NCBI GenBank assembly: GCA_019090585.1
Contig: JAHRVR010000148.1
Location: forward strand, 1-34,750
DNA length: 34,750 nucleotides
DNA from: Sphingomonadaceae bacterium
GTDB lineage: Bacteria > Pseudomonadota > Alphaproteobacteria > Sphingomonadales > Sphingomonadaceae
Direction of reading: 5' to 3'
Shown here in pieces: positions 11,906 through 19,342 of the stretch. Within the stretch, counting starts at the first letter, position 1; each line of letters opens with the position of its first letter. Both the position numbers and the translations under genes were made by a program. Below the pieces are notes generated by a model. The model had not been told where the DNA came from and searched no databases. It saw only the letters and a program-made list of their open reading frames with translations.

Positions 11906-12931
11906 ATGAGCGCCGATGTCCATCCTATCCAGACTGAACATGGTGTGACCGATGCGGCGGTCCCTATATCGCGCAGCGTCTATCTTGACGCCTATCTGGC
12001 ACCGCTGCGTCCGTGGCTGGAGCGTGAGAGCGTGACCGAGATATTGGTCAACCGGCCCGGCGAAGTCTGGATCGAAGATGCGGCCCATCCGGGAATGGAG
12101 CGCGTGGACTTGCCCGAATTGACCGACCAGTTGCTTCAGAGGCTGGCCGAACAAGTCGCGCGGGTCAGCCATCAGGGTATCAATCGCGAACATCCTCTGC
12201 TGGCTGCGACTCTGCCGTCCTATGACGGGCTGGCCGGTGCGCGCATTCAGCTTGTCGGTCCCCCGGCTACGCGCGATCACTGGGCGCTGGCAATCCGCCG
12301 TCACAGGCTGCTGGACCTGCCGCTGGATGCCTATGACAACGGGCCGATCCTGGCGCGCGCCGAAGCGCCCACTCCCGATCCTCTGGCCGAGCCGATTGCT
12401 TTTCTGCGCGATGCTATTGCCCGGCGGCGCACTATCCTGATCTCGGGCGGCACTTCGACTGGTAAGACGACGTTTCTCAATGCCATGCTGCATGAGATTC
12501 CTGATCATGAGCGCGTTGTTCTGGTGGAGGACACGCCGGAGCTTTTCCTGCCCGGTGCCAATGGCGTGGGGCTGATCGCGGTTAAAGGTGCGCTTGGTGA
12601 GGCGAAGGTTTCGGCCAATGATCTGCTTCAGGCCGCGCTGCGGCTGCGTCCGGACAGAATCGTTCTGGGCGAGCTGCGCGGGAATGAAACGGTCAGTTTT
12701 CTGCGCGCCATCAATACCGGCCACCCCGGGTCTTTCTCCACGGTTCATGCCAACAGCCCGCGCGGTGCGCTGGACCAGATCGGCCTGATGGCGATGCAGG
12801 CAACCATAGGCCTGAACATGGCAGAAACGCTGGAGTATGCAGCCTCTGTCATCGATATTGTGGTGCAGCTTGACCGGGCGAACGGCAAGCGCGGCATCTC
12901 GGCAATCGCGGAAAGCGCGTCCCTGTTCTAG
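11906..12931 (+). CDS. virB11: Type IV secretion system ATPase VirB11
   Basis: 341 aa; Walker A ISGGTSTGKTTFLNAML, LVEDTPEL, LRPDRIVLGELRGNETVSFLRAINTGHPGSFSTVHANS. Confidence 0.94.
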   Translation: MSADVHPIQTEHGVTDAAVPISRSVYLDAYLAPLRPWLERESVTEILVNRPGEVWIEDAAHPGMERVDLPELTDQLLQRLAEQVARVSHQGINREHPLLAATLPSYDGLAGARIQLVGPPATRDHWALAIRRHRLLDLPLDAYDNGPILARAEAPTPDPLAEPIAFLRDAIARRRTILISGGTSTGKTTFLNAMLHEIPDHERVVLVEDTPELFLPGANGVGLIAVKGALGEAKVSANDLLQAALRLRPDRIVLGELRGNETVSFLRAINTGHPGSFSTVHANSPRGALDQIGLMAMQATIGLNMAETLEYAASVIDIVVQLDRANGKRGISAIAESASLF

Positions 12932-13995: not shown

Positions 13996-14082
13996 TTTCC
14001 AGACTTGCGATGCGGTGGCTTGCGGGCGCGGTTTGCGCCATGCATGGCAATCAAAGCAATCGAGACAATTCAGGATGACCAG

Positions 14083-15570
14083 ATGTCAGGGAATCTCTAT
14101 TCACGCTTTGCCCGCAGCTTCACTCAGTTCGCAGACCGGATTCTGGTTGAGGAAGATGGCAAGAGCTGGACTTATGCCGAGATTGAGCGAAAGGCCGCGC
14201 GCCTGGCGGCCCAGCTGATCACGCTGGGTGTCGAACCCGGCGAACGTGTGCTGGTGCAGACTGACAAATCCGTTGAGACGCTGATCCTCTATTTTGCGGC
14301 GGTCCGCGTGGGCGCGATCTATCTGCCCCTCAATACCGATTATACTGAAGCGGAGCTGCAATATTTCGCTGCGGACGCCGCCCCGGTGCTTGCAGTGTGC
14401 CGTGATCAGAACGTCGATCTGTTTGAGCGGATTGGCAAGGGTCAGCTCACCGTTCGCACCATCGCCCAGCTGTTCGCTTCTTTGACAGATGCGCAAGCCG
14501 CACCCGTTCCGCGCGGCGGCGAAGATGTGGCCGCCATCCTTTATACGTCGGGCACCACGGGCAAGCCCAAAGGCGCGATGCTGACTCATCACAACCTTGT
14601 CGCCAATGGCGATACGCTGATCGACCTGTGGCAATTCACGCCCGAAGATCGTCTGATCCACGCACTGCCCATTTTCCACGTCCATGGCCTGTTCGTGGCT
14701 GTCCATTGCGTGGTGTTCTCGGGCGCCTCGATGGTGTTCCTGTCAAAATTTGAAAGCGCTGTCGCAGTAGATCTCATGGCGGGTTCAACGGTGCTGATGG
14801 GTGTGCCGACCTTCTATATCCGCCTGCTGGGCGATGAGGCCTTTACGCACGAGGCAGCTGCAAACATGCGGCTTTTCATCTCTGGCTCCGCGCCGCTTTC
14901 GGCGGACATTCACCGTGCTTTCGAAGGGCGCTGCGGCCACCGCGTGCTGGAACGCTATGGCATGACCGAAACCGGTATGCTCACTTCCAATCCATACGGC
15001 GGCGAACGGCGCGCCGGTTATGTCGGCCCGCCGCTTCCGGACGTGGAACTGCGCATCGCGGAATTTGAGAGCGGAAAGGTGCTGGAACAAGGTGAAGTCG
15101 GCATTGTCGAAGTCAGGGGCCCCAATATCTTTAAGGGATACTGGCAGATGCCAGAAAAGACAGCGGCAGAGTTCCGGCCCGACGGATTCTTCATCACCGG
15201 CGATATGGGGGTCATCGATAGCGATGGCTATGTCCAGCTTGTCGGCCGGGAAAAGGACCTGATCATCTCAGGCGGGCTCAATGTCTATCCCGCCGAAGTC
15301 GAAGTGCTGCTTGATGACCGGAAGGATGTGGCCGAAGCGGCGGTTATCGGTGTTCCCCATCCCGATTTCGGGGAAGCCGTGGTTGCCGTGATCCAGCGGT
15401 CGGGCCCTTTCAACACGGATGCCGTGCGCAAGGAACTGCGCAAGGATCTTGCTGCCTTCAAGGTGCCCAAGCAGATCATTACGCTCGATGCGCTGCCGCG
15501 CAACACGATGGGCAAGATCCAGAAGAAGCTGCTTCGAGAGCGTTATTCAGACCTGTTTGCCGCCGATTGA
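14083..15570 (+). CDS. Malonyl-CoA synthetase-like acyl-CoA ligase (AMP-binding, MatB/ACSF3-like)
   Basis: AMP-binding motif AAILYTSGTTGKPKGAMLTH, LPIFHVHGLFVAVHCVVFSGASMVFLSKF, YGMTETGM, C-terminal domain GREKDLIISGGLNVYPAEVE, GKIQKKLLRERY. Start placed at ATG 14083 (MSGNLYSRF); ORF opens at 14005. Confidence 0.87.
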   Translation: MSGNLYSRFARSFTQFADRILVEEDGKSWTYAEIERKAARLAAQLITLGVEPGERVLVQTDKSVETLILYFAAVRVGAIYLPLNTDYTEAELQYFAADAAPVLAVCRDQNVDLFERIGKGQLTVRTIAQLFASLTDAQAAPVPRGGEDVAAILYTSGTTGKPKGAMLTHHNLVANGDTLIDLWQFTPEDRLIHALPIFHVHGLFVAVHCVVFSGASMVFLSKFESAVAVDLMAGSTVLMGVPTFYIRLLGDEAFTHEAAANMRLFISGSAPLSADIHRAFEGRCGHRVLERYGMTETGMLTSNPYGGERRAGYVGPPLPDVELRIAEFESGKVLEQGEVGIVEVRGPNIFKGYWQMPEKTAAEFRPDGFFITGDMGVIDSDGYVQLVGREKDLIISGGLNVYPAEVEVLLDDRKDVAEAAVIGVPHPDFGEAVVAVIQRSGPFNTDAVRKELRKDLAAFKVPKQIITLDALPRNTMGKIQKKLLRERYSDLFAAD

Positions 15571-16098: not shown

Positions 16099-17154
16099 TC
16101 AGGCCGGTTCCAACAGGAAATTGGCGCGCATGTAGGCCGCGCATTCGTCAAGAATGGCCTTGCCGAGTGCGGTTAGCTGCGCGCCGCCGCGCAGTGTTTC
16201 TTCGCATTCCCAAAATGCCGTTACGCTGGCTTCGAGTAAACCGACCATAAAGCCAGCTTCCCGATCGGAGAGGCATGGCTCCGCCTCATGGCGGCACAGC
16301 AGGCTGTCGAATGCGAGGCATTCACGGGCCGACACAAAGGCCGCGTGATAGATGCCGTCCATCGGGCGCACATCTTCCCTGAGCGGTGAATTGTGCCTTT
16401 CTTGCGGATCGTCCGTGACCAGTGGTTCCTCCCGGGCGATTGCGAAGAGGACATTGTGGGCGGTCTCATGGACCACCGTACGGAAATACTGCTCCCAGCA
16501 GTCATGATCTTGCGCATTGACGGTGAAGGTTCCCCATAGCGCGAAAGACGATGCGCCGCCGAATTCCAGGAGTTGCGTGCCGTCCGGTTGCGCCAGGATG
16601 ATGTCGCCAATGATGGCCTCGACCTCACCGTGTAAAACGGGCGAGGCCAGACGCAGCTTTTCCAGCGCGGTTTCCAGCAACGCACTTGCGGCCGAGAATT
16701 CCGGTCCAGAAAGGCTCGTCAAACCCATAAAATTCGCAGGTTCGATATCCCACCAGCGCGTCAGGCGAGTGATCTGCTCTACGCTATAGTGCTTCGTGCT
16801 CAGATTTAGGATGATTGGTGCGCTGGCGGATGCACGAGGGCTTTCGCCATCGCTTTGTCCCAGGCGTGCGGCCAGATAGCCGGCAGCCTCTTCCTTCACC
16901 GCGAGAGGAAGTTCAGCAAGATCTGGAGGCGTAAGGACAAGGTCGAAATAGGCTCCGAAATCCAGAGGGCCTGCATGGCCCGGTGTGGAATCGGCCGATC
17001 CTTCGCCCGCAGGAATGGACACCTCTCGTTCGGCCAGTGCCATTCGGACACTGGCCCACAGCGAGCGCTCCATCGCGCTGCGCAAGCAGCGTGCGCGATC
17101 AACGCATGGTTCGAAGTATGTCATGCGATCCGGGCCGGGCATCACACCCGGCAC
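16099..17154 (-). CDS. HExxH-motif putative peptide-modification enzyme (aKG-HExxH-type peptide beta-hydroxylase-like)
   Basis: 351 aa; FRTVVHETAHNVLFAIAREEPL (HETAH codons 16456-16470) followed by NSPLREDVRPMDGIYHAAFVSAR, resembling the HEXXH-motif domain family found in RiPP loci. Start codon ambiguous (17154 GTG, internal ATGs). Confidence 0.75.
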   Translation of the reverse strand: MPGVMPGPDRMTYFEPCVDRARCLRSAMERSLWASVRMALAEREVSIPAGEGSADSTPGHAGPLDFGAYFDLVLTPPDLAELPLAVKEEAAGYLAARLGQSDGESPRASASAPIILNLSTKHYSVEQITRLTRWWDIEPANFMGLTSLSGPEFSAASALLETALEKLRLASPVLHGEVEAIIGDIILAQPDGTQLLEFGGASSFALWGTFTVNAQDHDCWEQYFRTVVHETAHNVLFAIAREEPLVTDDPQERHNSPLREDVRPMDGIYHAAFVSARECLAFDSLLCRHEAEPCLSDREAGFMVGLLEASVTAFWECEETLRGGAQLTALGKAILDECAAYMRANFLLEPA

Positions 17155-17168
17155 AGGTCTATCAAAAA

Positions 17169-17450
17169 TCAGCGGCGTGCGTTGAGGCGAACCACACGCT
17201 TGCCGGTTCCATCAAGAGCGGGTGTACGAACCTTCCCGCCATCCTTGGCGATGAGCTGGGCGCTGCGGTCCGAACCATAGACCATCAGTCCGGCCAGACC
17301 TTTTTTGCCCGATGGGCCAGCTTTTGCAACAAGCCTTGATCCATCGTTCGCGCCATAGACCGAGAGCATGTCGGAGTTTGTCTTGCCGCCGATCTTGGCG
17401 ATCAGTTCCGAATTCCCGGTCATACCGTATGGAAGGAGTTTCTTGCTCAT
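17169..17450 (-). CDS. Candidate multi-core precursor peptide with three internal repeats
   Basis: ATG at 17450 preceded on the - strand by gagagg; 93 aa MSKKLLPYGMTGNSELIAKIGGKTNSDMLSVYGANDGSRLVAKAGPSGKKGLAGLMVYGSDRSAQLIAKDGGKVRTPALDGTGKRVVRLNARR; stop about 14 nt before the HExxH ORF on the same strand. Confidence 0.72.
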   Translation of the reverse strand: MSKKLLPYGMTGNSELIAKIGGKTNSDMLSVYGANDGSRLVAKAGPSGKKGLAGLMVYGSDRSAQLIAKDGGKVRTPALDGTGKRVVRLNARR

Positions 17451-17539
17451 CACTGGTACCTCTCATTGCAAAATGGCTTGCGCCGAGGCTACGTCACGAG
17501 CGCCGCGAATTCAAGGACAAGACCAGGAAGGCTCCCGAA

Positions 17540-19342
17540 GTGCCCCCCACCCAGTTTTATGGATACCAGGCCTTGCAAAGGCACCCCGCCGCCCTCGTTG
17601 AGCTGGAGCACCAGATCGCGGACGGGTTTGATGAGGCCAATATCGATCAATGGCTTACGGAATTCTGCGGGATCAAGCCGGAACTGCTTCCTGCGCTTGA
17701 GGAATTTTCCAGCGATCCGAACGGTCGGCAAGTCGCCTTCGTGTTTTCGCGCTCGCTCTCACTTTATGGTGCACTGCTGGACTATGTCGGCGTGCCATGC
17801 CTGAAAGGAGGACGGGTGCTTCGCGTCGCGGAAGCGAAAGACGGGCAAGGCAAATACCGTGCCGCGGTTCTTTTTGAGCTTCTCGACACTATGCCAATGC
17901 GCTTGTTTGCCGATCTCTTGCTTGCAGCACTCGATCTGGTGCGCAGCAAATTCAGCGCCAAGCCCGATGCTGAAACGGCGGACAAGCTGTTGCAACAAGT
18001 GTCGGCCAACCTCATTGAAGATCTGAAAACGCATTCACCGTTCGCTGTCGGAGGAGACTCGATACTTCACGAGGCTGTTCGGCAGGATGTGCCATACCGG
18101 CACCTTGGCCTTGGGATTGTGCGGCTGGGATGGGGGGCAAAATCGCGGTTGCTCAGGATCAGCGCTTCTGATGCTGACAGCCAGATCAGCAAGGAAATCT
18201 GCGGCATGAAGCACAGGACGGCGCAGATCCTGCGTGCGGCTGGGCTGCCCGGTGCACAGAACCATCTTGTCCGCTCTCCCGAAGAGGCTCTTGCTGCAGC
18301 GGAGGCGCTCGGTTGGCCGGTTGTGGTCAAACCGCCGCACCGCGAACGGTCCGAAGGGGTGATGACGAATATCGGCAATGAAGCGGAGCTGTTTGCCGCA
18401 TTCCAGGCGGCGAGCGAGTATGACCACCGCGTCGTGATTGAACGCCATGCGCCCGGCTATTGCCATCGAATCTATGTTGCTGGCGGGCAGCTGACTTATG
18501 CGGTCAGAAGAATTCCCCAGCGCGTGATCGGCGATGGCAAGAGCACCGTTTCTGAACTCGCCGAGGCGAAGAATCTGGAAGACCGGATATTTCCGCCGTG
18601 GAAACGCTGGCTCCCGTGTCAGCTCGATGAGCTTGCCGAGAAAACACTTGCCCGTCAGGGGTTGAACTTCGATTCGGTGCCCGAAGAGGGCCAGGGGGCT
18701 GAATTTCGCCCTTTCGATTCGCATGACTGGGGCGGCCATGTTGAGAATGTCATCAAGGATATTCATCCCGACAATGTTCAGCTGGCATTGCAGGCGACCG
18801 AACTGGTTGGCATGTCGATTTGCGGTGTCGATCTGATGACCACCGACATCACCAAGCCTTGGCACGAAACCGGCGCGATCATCAACGAATTGAACTTCGG
18901 GCCGGCATTCCGGTCGCACGATCGCGAGGAGGAGGCAGCCAGCGTCATTCCCGCACTTCTTGGCGGCGACGGCCGTATCCCGGTTCATCTTGTTATGGGT
19001 GAGGGAGACCTTCTGGCCGCGGCAAAGGCGCTGAAGGCAAAGCTTGGGAAGCAAGGCGGAAGATTTCATCTCACGACCGCCGATTATAGCGAGGATGCAG
19101 CAGGCAAGAACCTGCATATGGACGGCGAAACCCTGTTCGAACGGTCTCTGGCGCTGGTCCTGCGGCCCGACGTCGATGGGATTGTCATGGCGGGAAGCTG
19201 GCCAGACCTCTTCAAGGGCGGTTTTGCAGTGGACCAGCTGGAAAGCGCCAACACGGTCAATTGCGACGAACAGACGGCGCGTAAGTTGTTCGGGGCTTTG
19301 CAGGCACAAGTACGGGTTCACACGTTCCGCCGGCTAGGCTGA
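17540..19342 (+). CDS. Cyanophycin-synthetase (CphA)-like ATP-grasp protein, Mur-ligase half reduced
   Basis: ATP-grasp motifs GWPVVVKPPHRERSEGVMTNI, VVIERHAPGYCHRIYVAGGQLTYAVRRIPQRVIGDGKSTVSEL, IINELNFGPAFRSH; no GTNGKTT P-loop. ORF opens at 17312, but upstream in-frame ATGs overlap the antisense precursor; GTG 17540 after aggaag is proposed as start. Confidence 0.75.
   Translation: MPPTQFYGYQALQRHPAALVELEHQIADGFDEANIDQWLTEFCGIKPELLPALEEFSSDPNGRQVAFVFSRSLSLYGALLDYVGVPCLKGGRVLRVAEAKDGQGKYRAAVLFELLDTMPMRLFADLLLAALDLVRSKFSAKPDAETADKLLQQVSANLIEDLKTHSPFAVGGDSILHEAVRQDVPYRHLGLGIVRLGWGAKSRLLRISASDADSQISKEICGMKHRTAQILRAAGLPGAQNHLVRSPEEALAAAEALGWPVVVKPPHRERSEGVMTNIGNEAELFAAFQAASEYDHRVVIERHAPGYCHRIYVAGGQLTYAVRRIPQRVIGDGKSTVSELAEAKNLEDRIFPPWKRWLPCQLDELAEKTLARQGLNFDSVPEEGQGAEFRPFDSHDWGGHVENVIKDIHPDNVQLALQATELVGMSICGVDLMTTDITKPWHETGAIINELNFGPAFRSHDREEEAASVIPALLGGDGRIPVHLVMGEGDLLAAAKALKAKLGKQGGRFHLTTADYSEDAAGKNLHMDGETLFERSLALVLRPDVDGIVMAGSWPDLFKGGFAVDQLESANTVNCDEQTARKLFGALQAQVRVHTFRRLG

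Follow-up and report, generated by a model that had tools for sequence, protein, structure and literature searches.

The stretch of DNA analysed in this work (hereafter the window; 34,750 nucleotides, nt) is contig JAHRVR010000148.1 of a Sphingomonadaceae bacterium (assembly GCA_019090585.1); it corresponds to C128, one of the contigs of a draft genome of 2.6 Mb, whose close relatives in our collection scan are members of Novosphingobium. Between positions 16,099 and 19,342 the window carries three neighbouring genes, encoding a small repeat-containing peptide, a protein with an HExxH motif and an ATP-grasp ligase related to cyanophycin synthetase (CphA). An initial annotation, made from the sequence alone, had put these genes forward as a cassette for a ribosomally synthesized and post-translationally modified peptide (RiPP).

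Genes of the cassette and their protein families

The peptide gene is located on the minus strand (17169..17450, with its ATG at 17450 and its stop codon ending at 17169), and encodes a precursor-like peptide of 93 amino acids (aa) (MSKKLLPYG...RVVRLNARR). Its three near-regular repeats, already noticed in the initial annotation, are unit 1, YGMTGNSELIAKIG (residues 8-21, 17388..17429, YG...LIAKIG), unit 2, YGANDGSRLVAKAG (residues 32-45, 17316..17357, YG...LVAKAG), and unit 3, YGSDRSAQLIAKDG (residues 58-71, 17238..17279, YG...LIAKDG), all on the minus strand. They follow the strict pattern Y-G-x(7)-L-(I/V)-A-K-x-G, with spacings of 24 and 26. Among 200,000 residue shuffles of this peptide, one strict unit appeared in 23 and two or more in none, and a looser version of the pattern yielded three units in 0/200,000. 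The peptide belongs to a family that we designate type A (LxPYGSxxxAxLVAKVG), and it ends in a basic motif, KRVVRLNARR (17172..17201, minus strand), which is kept in the Novosphingobium homologues and possibly serves as a recognition sequence or as the end at which ligation takes place.

Downstream on the same strand lies the HExxH gene (16099..17124), whose frame remains open to a GTG at 17154. Start codons in the cassette are predictions; since the homologues begin at (M)xxFEP, the ATG at 17124, 44 nt after the peptide gene, is the likelier start, and the distance of about 14 nt given initially would be possible from the GTG. The HETAH motif (16456..16470, minus strand; H217, E218 and H221) is invariant in 30 homologues, and in the same alignment a second block downstream of it, SPxRxDxRPxDGIxHA, is invariant or nearly so; this block of the window protein, in the form SPxRxDxRPxxGxxHA, aligns with ChlB-HExxH, an alpha-ketoglutarate (aKG) oxygenase. 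The NCBIfam model TIGR04267 recognizes the window protein (E=5.7e-23, 81.8 bits, cut-off 40) as well as 30/30 aligned members of its family, and a Pfam search gave no match for it. Furthermore, the AlphaFold (AF2) model, with a predicted local distance difference test (pLDDT) value of 94.1, has as its top PDB match in Foldseek the structure 8s5f (E=5.9e-11, template modelling score 0.70), which is the aKG oxygenase domain of ChlB, followed by SjiH (22ob). By profile, alignment and modelled fold, the window protein is a true member of the aKG-HExxH peptide hydroxylase family, in agreement with the initial assignment, and it is predicted to be a hydroxylase in this system.

Among the characterised relatives, the residues hydroxylated are His, Asp, Phe, Gln and Pro (PMC13060819). 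The HExxH signature is also a zincin motif, and PflC and PosC, two members of the family, provide a precedent for oxidative backbone cleavage, with PflC cleaving hydrolytically when the leader is lacking (PMC12636437); the window protein might therefore process the repeat peptide as a protease or by cleaving its backbone. We regard this as quite unlikely, as PflC and PosC are aKG hydroxylases too, and the window protein both shares the second conserved block with ChlB-HExxH and finds in that oxygenase its best fold match. HExxH genes on plasmids of Xenorhabdus, Pantoea and Photobacterium were also considered and rejected; the two examined belong to other HExxH groups, with major facilitator superfamily transporters and no ATP-grasp gene.

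The ligase gene (17540..19342, plus strand; about 600 aa) diverges from the peptide/HExxH pair across an intergenic region of 89 bp (17451..17539), close to the 90 bp first estimated. Its probable GTG start at 17540 is preceded by AGGAAGG 8 nt upstream and coincides with the position at which homologues begin; the longest open reading frame (ORF), from an ATG at 17312, is unlikely, because it overlaps the peptide gene antisense. Both cyanophycin synthetase models are the top NCBIfam matches, with the TIGR02068 alignment covering at least residues 235-590 of the longest ORF (E=4.9e-64) at 216.7 bits, far below its cut-off of 850. PDB matches correspond to CphA: the profile built from 17 cassette ligases finds TeCphA1 (7wac) with E=1.7e-78, and in Foldseek the AF2 model (pLDDT 84.5) matches CphA1 (7wae, E=5e-40) and also CphA2 (7ta5 and 8fxi).

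The homology with CphA1 and CphA2 extends over the N and G domains, and the residues expected of an ATP-grasp ligase are in place. The ATP-binding Lys K287, equivalent to CphA1 K261, is kept within the glycine-rich loop KPPHRERSE (18329..18355, plus strand), and the Mg-binding residues D454, E473 and N475 (CphA1 D431, E450 and N452; 18830..18895, plus strand) are invariant; indeed, the equivalents of K261, R309, R323, D431, E450 and N452 are invariant in 17/17 cassette ligases. Conversely, H267 is replaced by Arg (R293) and R269 by Glu (E295) in all 17, the former at a position where the substitution H267A inactivates the CphA1 G domain (PMC9262961), and the equivalents of N394 and R458, by which CphA1 holds its incoming Asp (PMC9427784), vary. 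Only a remnant of the start of the CphA Mur-ligase domain is found (18968..19339, plus strand), and the phosphate-binding loop (P-loop) GTNGKTT, lost in the cassette ligases, reads VMGEGD in the window. This residue pattern suggests that the ligases still carry out ATP chemistry and stabilise an acyl phosphate, that they no longer add Arg and that their acceptor pocket has changed. The relationship with CphA that was first proposed is well supported as a descent from it, but in function the ligase is not a cyanophycin synthetase.

Phylogenetically, the cassette ligases group together in a single clade (Shimodaira-Hasegawa-like approximate likelihood ratio test value of 100), to which neither CphA1 nor the other short CphA-like proteins belong. 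Additional CphA-like ATP-grasp genes occur in two cassette-ligase clusters (locus L086: 1-1302, 1251-3074 and 4717-6780; locus L092: 11424-13310), one of which, in L086, branches outside the clade; these extra genes, three of them in L086, suggest more than one ligation step. Sphingomonadaceae also possess short CphA-like ATP-grasp proteins devoid of a Mur domain (L016, L022, L024, L027, L038-L041, L164 and L169), which branch apart from the cassette clade. Relatives of the ligase were also sought among viral contigs, where none was found.

Recurrence of the cassette and exchange of its ligase

The triplet is conserved in other genomes and in several gene orders; the cassette withstands the refuting condition on conservation set out with the initial annotation. 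Within Novosphingobium, it is present in N. marinum (L075/L089) and in Novosphingobium sp. HKST-UBA127 (L074/L083), the latter with two peptides, and N. album (L073/L082) carries two peptides and the HExxH gene, with a ligase of the cassette clade on another contig. Among 196 Novosphingobium genomes, close HExxH proteins (E <= 4e-97) and cassette-type ligases (E <= 8e-136) were found in the identical four, the next ligase-like matches being 2.6e-56 or weaker; were the two genes independent, the chance of this co-occurrence would be about 1.7e-8, a figure weakened by shared descent.

In all, 85,462 species genomes were scanned with the HExxH alignment, using two HExxH-protein motifs, and E-values and gene neighbourhoods were computed. 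This yielded 77 loci, or 78 counting the window, mostly in Pseudomonadota, with homologous sets in other Novosphingobium, Burkholderiales, Nitrotoga, Methylococcaceae and others, and with single loci in Verrucomicrobiota, Planctomycetota and Acidobacteriota. Homologues of the type A peptide do adjoin HExxH genes (L073/L082, L074/L083, L075/L089, L076/L084 and L085-L088); these precursors occur in the window branch, Burkholderiales and Nitrotoga. A second type, B, combines an xLDxxKLLGFKI stretch at the N-terminus with subsequent xKxGxK units; what both types share is the Lys-x-Gly (KxG) unit. A pattern search for KxG peptides gave 66 matches in 252 kb near HExxH genes versus 8 in 1,693 kb of control DNA, and under a conservative rule a related peptide lies near the HExxH gene in at least 55 of the 78 loci. 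Neighbourhoods of nine other TIGR04267 loci in the family, taken as a control, contained neither these ligases nor KxG peptides. Peptide matches in genomes G584 and G113 were rejected, since they sit inside unrelated ORFs, and matches of the peptides to Fer4_NifH, lasso_cyano, Yae1_N and Shal-type models in Pfam and NCBIfam were weak and at chance level. In some genomes a cluster carries several precursor genes in tandem (L107: 4462-4979; L087: 9382-10122; L131, L083, L082, L084 and L125); the N-terminal parts of these tandem precursors are strongly conserved and their tails differ.

A carboxylate-activating enzyme is encoded within 3 kb of the HExxH gene in 67/78 loci. Three types of partner were recognized: CphA-like ligases (type C, 20 loci, of which L115 is a divergent one), a protein of about 330 aa (type D, 43 loci), and an enzyme with adenylation, peptidyl carrier protein and thioesterase domains (A-PCP-TE; type A partner, 4 loci). 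Types C and D never occur together in one locus. Eleven loci lack a neighbouring ligase; elsewhere in the genome, N. album has one of type C, and L099, L129 and L130 have one of type D. On the tree of HExxH proteins, the CphA-like label requires 7 changes, at least 6 of them forced by well-supported branches, compared with a mean of 17 for shuffled labels, which indicates that the ligases have been exchanged. Thus, the three-gene cassette initially proposed is conserved, but three partners are interchangeable in the place of its ligase, the CphA-like one among them, and the peptide and HExxH pair is the constant part.

The type D protein has a conserved GRxDF...EINTNP motif. Its family profile matches D-Ala-D-Ala ligases of the PDB (E=2.8e-4), a Pfam search gave no match, and an hhalign comparison with the CphA-like family was not significant; by sequence, it is probably also an ATP-grasp enzyme. 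Examples that take the place of the CphA-like ligase beside the HExxH gene are found at L100:6306-7295, L113:6301-7302 and L097:3411-4388, and D-type relatives were also seen in a Paracoccus polysaccharide locus and on a Deinococcus plasmid. Genes resembling non-ribosomal peptide synthetases directly follow the HExxH gene at L095:8541-11957, L149:8543-11230, L152:3323-4390 and L154:8590-11115; those of L095 and L154 encode AMP-binding, phosphopantetheine and thioesterase domains according to Pfam, that of L149 is similar, and that of L152 ends at the contig end. At L140:11107-14307, a single protein joins an AMP-binding domain to a second CphA-like ATP-grasp, which also falls within the cassette clade.

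The ligase gene might be that of an ordinary cyanophycin-related enzyme, lying beside the peptide and HExxH genes by chance. Its sequence and fold similarity to CphA1 and CphA2 would fit such a coincidence, and so would a second peptide and HExxH pair in the same draft genome (C124:2704-3955, L042), consisting of a 48-aa single-unit peptide (MTKLLPYGDTRNSNIVAKIGG...) and a paralogue 40% identical to the window HExxH protein, with no ligase nearby within the 13 kb examined. Against it, CphA-like ligases adjoin the pair in 20/78 loci and in three orientations: divergent (window, L083, L085-L090, L092 and L112), convergent (L116, L121, L122, L134 and L140) and on the same strand (L118, L135, L139 and L141). 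They form a separate clade, have lost the Mur P-loop and the catalytic H267, and are restricted within Novosphingobium to the same four genomes as the HExxH gene. This co-occurrence largely refutes a chance association, to which we give very little credence. A storage-polymer reading of the cassette was also considered and set aside. The L042 arrangement recurs in L084, with two peptides; the HExxH gene of L076/L084 (G749:C231:2470-3450) is interrupted by a single in-frame TAG close to its 3' end, and possibly it is decaying or the codon is an assembly error.

Proposed chemistry and comparison with known systems

Taken together, these genes probably form a RiPP-like cassette in a minimal version, belonging to a widespread, undescribed class in which the HExxH enzyme would hydroxylate the repeated units and the ligase would form an amide bond. 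A ribosomal precursor would carry one to several xKxG units, which in the window lie within the LxPYGSxxxAxLVAKVG repeats; the HExxH enzyme, dependent on Fe and aKG, would bind the precursor and hydroxylate a carbon in each KxG unit, most likely in the conserved Lys or its neighbour. The ATP-dependent ligase would then convert the C-terminus or a free amino acid to an acyl phosphate and join it to an amine supplied by the peptide or by an amino acid, and the product may be a small bioactive or metabolic compound. In the window branch, this ligase has its origin in the ATP-grasp (G) domain of cyanophycin synthetase, with the Arg-adding Mur activity lost and the active site re-tooled.

Because some precursors lack Asp and Glu, the ligase would most likely activate either a free amino acid or the C-terminal carboxylate of the peptide. 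Adenylation domains usually activate free acids, so that the A-PCP-TE variants and the L140 fusion would point in this direction, too. The CphA1 G domain activates the C-terminal carboxylate of a peptide (PMC9427784), and R309, which stabilises the acyl phosphate, is invariant here. The cassette peptide could accordingly be a scaffold to whose C-terminus the ATP-grasp enzyme adds one or more amino acids, as CphA1 does with Asp and peptide aminoacyl-tRNA ligases (PEARLs) with aminoacyl-tRNA, the HExxH enzyme oxidising the added residue or its neighbour before a protease frees a small molecule. The basic C-terminal motif shared by the Novosphingobium precursors and the lack of a conserved transporter or leader protease would also be in line with a scaffold. 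However, the internal KxG repeats, which C-terminal extension would not need, are the most conserved part of the precursors, the C-termini of type B precursors vary, and the Asp-binding N394 and R458 are not conserved; we therefore deem this pathway rather unlikely.

Proximity of an ATP-grasp gene to that of a precursor, sometimes with repeated cores, is also a feature of graspetides of the microviridin type, and the Lys-rich cores would suit a macrocyclase linking Asp or Glu to Lys, Ser or Thr side chains within the core. Nevertheless, a simple pattern for the graspetide core motif (Asp/Glu with Thr/Ser/Lys) matched 0/22 precursors beside CphA-like ligases, two L087 precursors contain no Asp or Glu and several other cores have 0-2, all of which argues against side-chain lactam or lactone formation. 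In addition, the ligase belongs to the CphA lineage, another branch of ATP-grasp enzymes, it has an HExxH partner, and the main text of a graspetide survey mentions neither cyanophycin nor HExxH (PMC8939145). Macrocyclisation of this kind thus seems very unlikely.

As in other RiPP systems, the precursor gene lies beside genes for modifying enzymes and is conserved jointly with them. The HExxH protein shares family and fold with ChlB-HExxH, PflC/PosC, PesO and BpmH (TIGR04267/IPR026337), and its gene likewise adjoins a precursor gene, but the partners described in the literature consulted are radical S-adenosylmethionine enzymes, multinuclear non-heme iron-dependent oxidative enzymes (MNIOs), MNIO-nitroreductase combinations and asparagine-synthetase-like proteins, in contrast to the ATP-grasp or A-PCP-TE partners found here, and the substrates here are KxG-repeat peptides for which NCBIfam and Pfam hold no model. 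The nitrilobacillin biosynthetic gene cluster of Peribacillus resembles the cassette in combining an HExxH hydroxylase with an ATP-dependent activator of the peptide C-terminal carboxylate, but where the cassette has an ATP-grasp it relies on an MNIO and an asparagine-synthetase-like enzyme (PMC13060819). A ribosomal peptide as acceptor and an ATP-dependent amide bond are also features of PEARLs and alpha-guanidino-acid peptide ligases of the pheganomycin type (PMC10979984 and PMC8939145). A combination of either ligase with an HExxH protein was not reported in the literature found. PEARLs are tRNA-dependent and are not known to be CphA-like. CphA1 and CphA2, for their part, differ from the cassette ligases in active site, domain content and position in the tree, and the latter occur with HExxH and peptide genes. 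In the open-access literature searched, no description was found of a cassette combining an HExxH protein, a CphA-like ATP-grasp and a ribosomal precursor, and no named RiPP class accommodates this one, as had been anticipated.

Several observations weigh against the proposed cassette and its chemistry. The proportion of 67/78 loci with an activating enzyme is conditional on the search, since the loci were collected through HExxH motifs. The type D protein is only a probable ATP-grasp enzyme, and D-type relatives also occur without HExxH genes. HExxH and peptide genes without a nearby ligase (L042 and L084) indicate that this enzyme is not required everywhere. Hydroxylation is not certain, because the HExxH family also performs oxidative and hydrolytic backbone cleavage (PMC12636437). 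Finally, maturation and export are unexplained, given that no transporter or protease gene is conserved.

Gene neighbourhood and significance

Neighbourhood clustering within 5 kb revealed no conserved transporter, protease or regulator across the loci, and hence none for leader removal or export, and the ORF list for 12.0-24.0 kb of the window agrees with the initial observation that neither a transporter nor a protease gene adjoins the cassette. Consequently, the product may act inside the cell, or processing genes may lie elsewhere in the genome, as they do for some RiPPs (PMC12636437). From reading the sequences between 12.0 and 24.0 kb, we take the neighbours to be one acyl-CoA-ligase-like gene, one nitronate-monooxygenase-like gene and several that resemble enoyl-CoA-hydratase genes. 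An AMP-binding gene at 13996-15567, which matches an adenylation domain model, was not counted within the cassette, being an acyl-CoA ligase by similarity that lies beside fatty-acid genes. Further upstream, an ORF at 11906-12931 resembles by eye a TrbB/VirB11-type secretion ATPase, and the part of the contig that precedes the cassette may include a fragment of a mobile element.

The novelty of this system lies in an undescribed precursor class and in its combination of enzymes, the RiPP-like logic and the enzyme families being already known. The exchange of ligases on a constant peptide and HExxH pair constitutes a natural experiment, which points to carboxylic acid activation as the chemistry needed. 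As far as we found, this is the first link of cyanophycin-synthetase-type ligases to ribosomal peptides. The loci also hint that peptide natural products of this kind make up a large family, for which precursor models are absent. More tentatively, and as a possibility that we hold with less than even confidence, this family could represent a new and widespread class in which an HExxH enzyme and one of several interchangeable ligases (the repurposed CphA-type ATP-grasp, the smaller second ATP-grasp or the A-PCP-TE protein) install a hydroxylated, amide-extended unit, for instance an aminoacylated Lys, at each KxG repeat; if true, this would be a hybrid of ribosomal and non-ribosomal chemistry not seen before.

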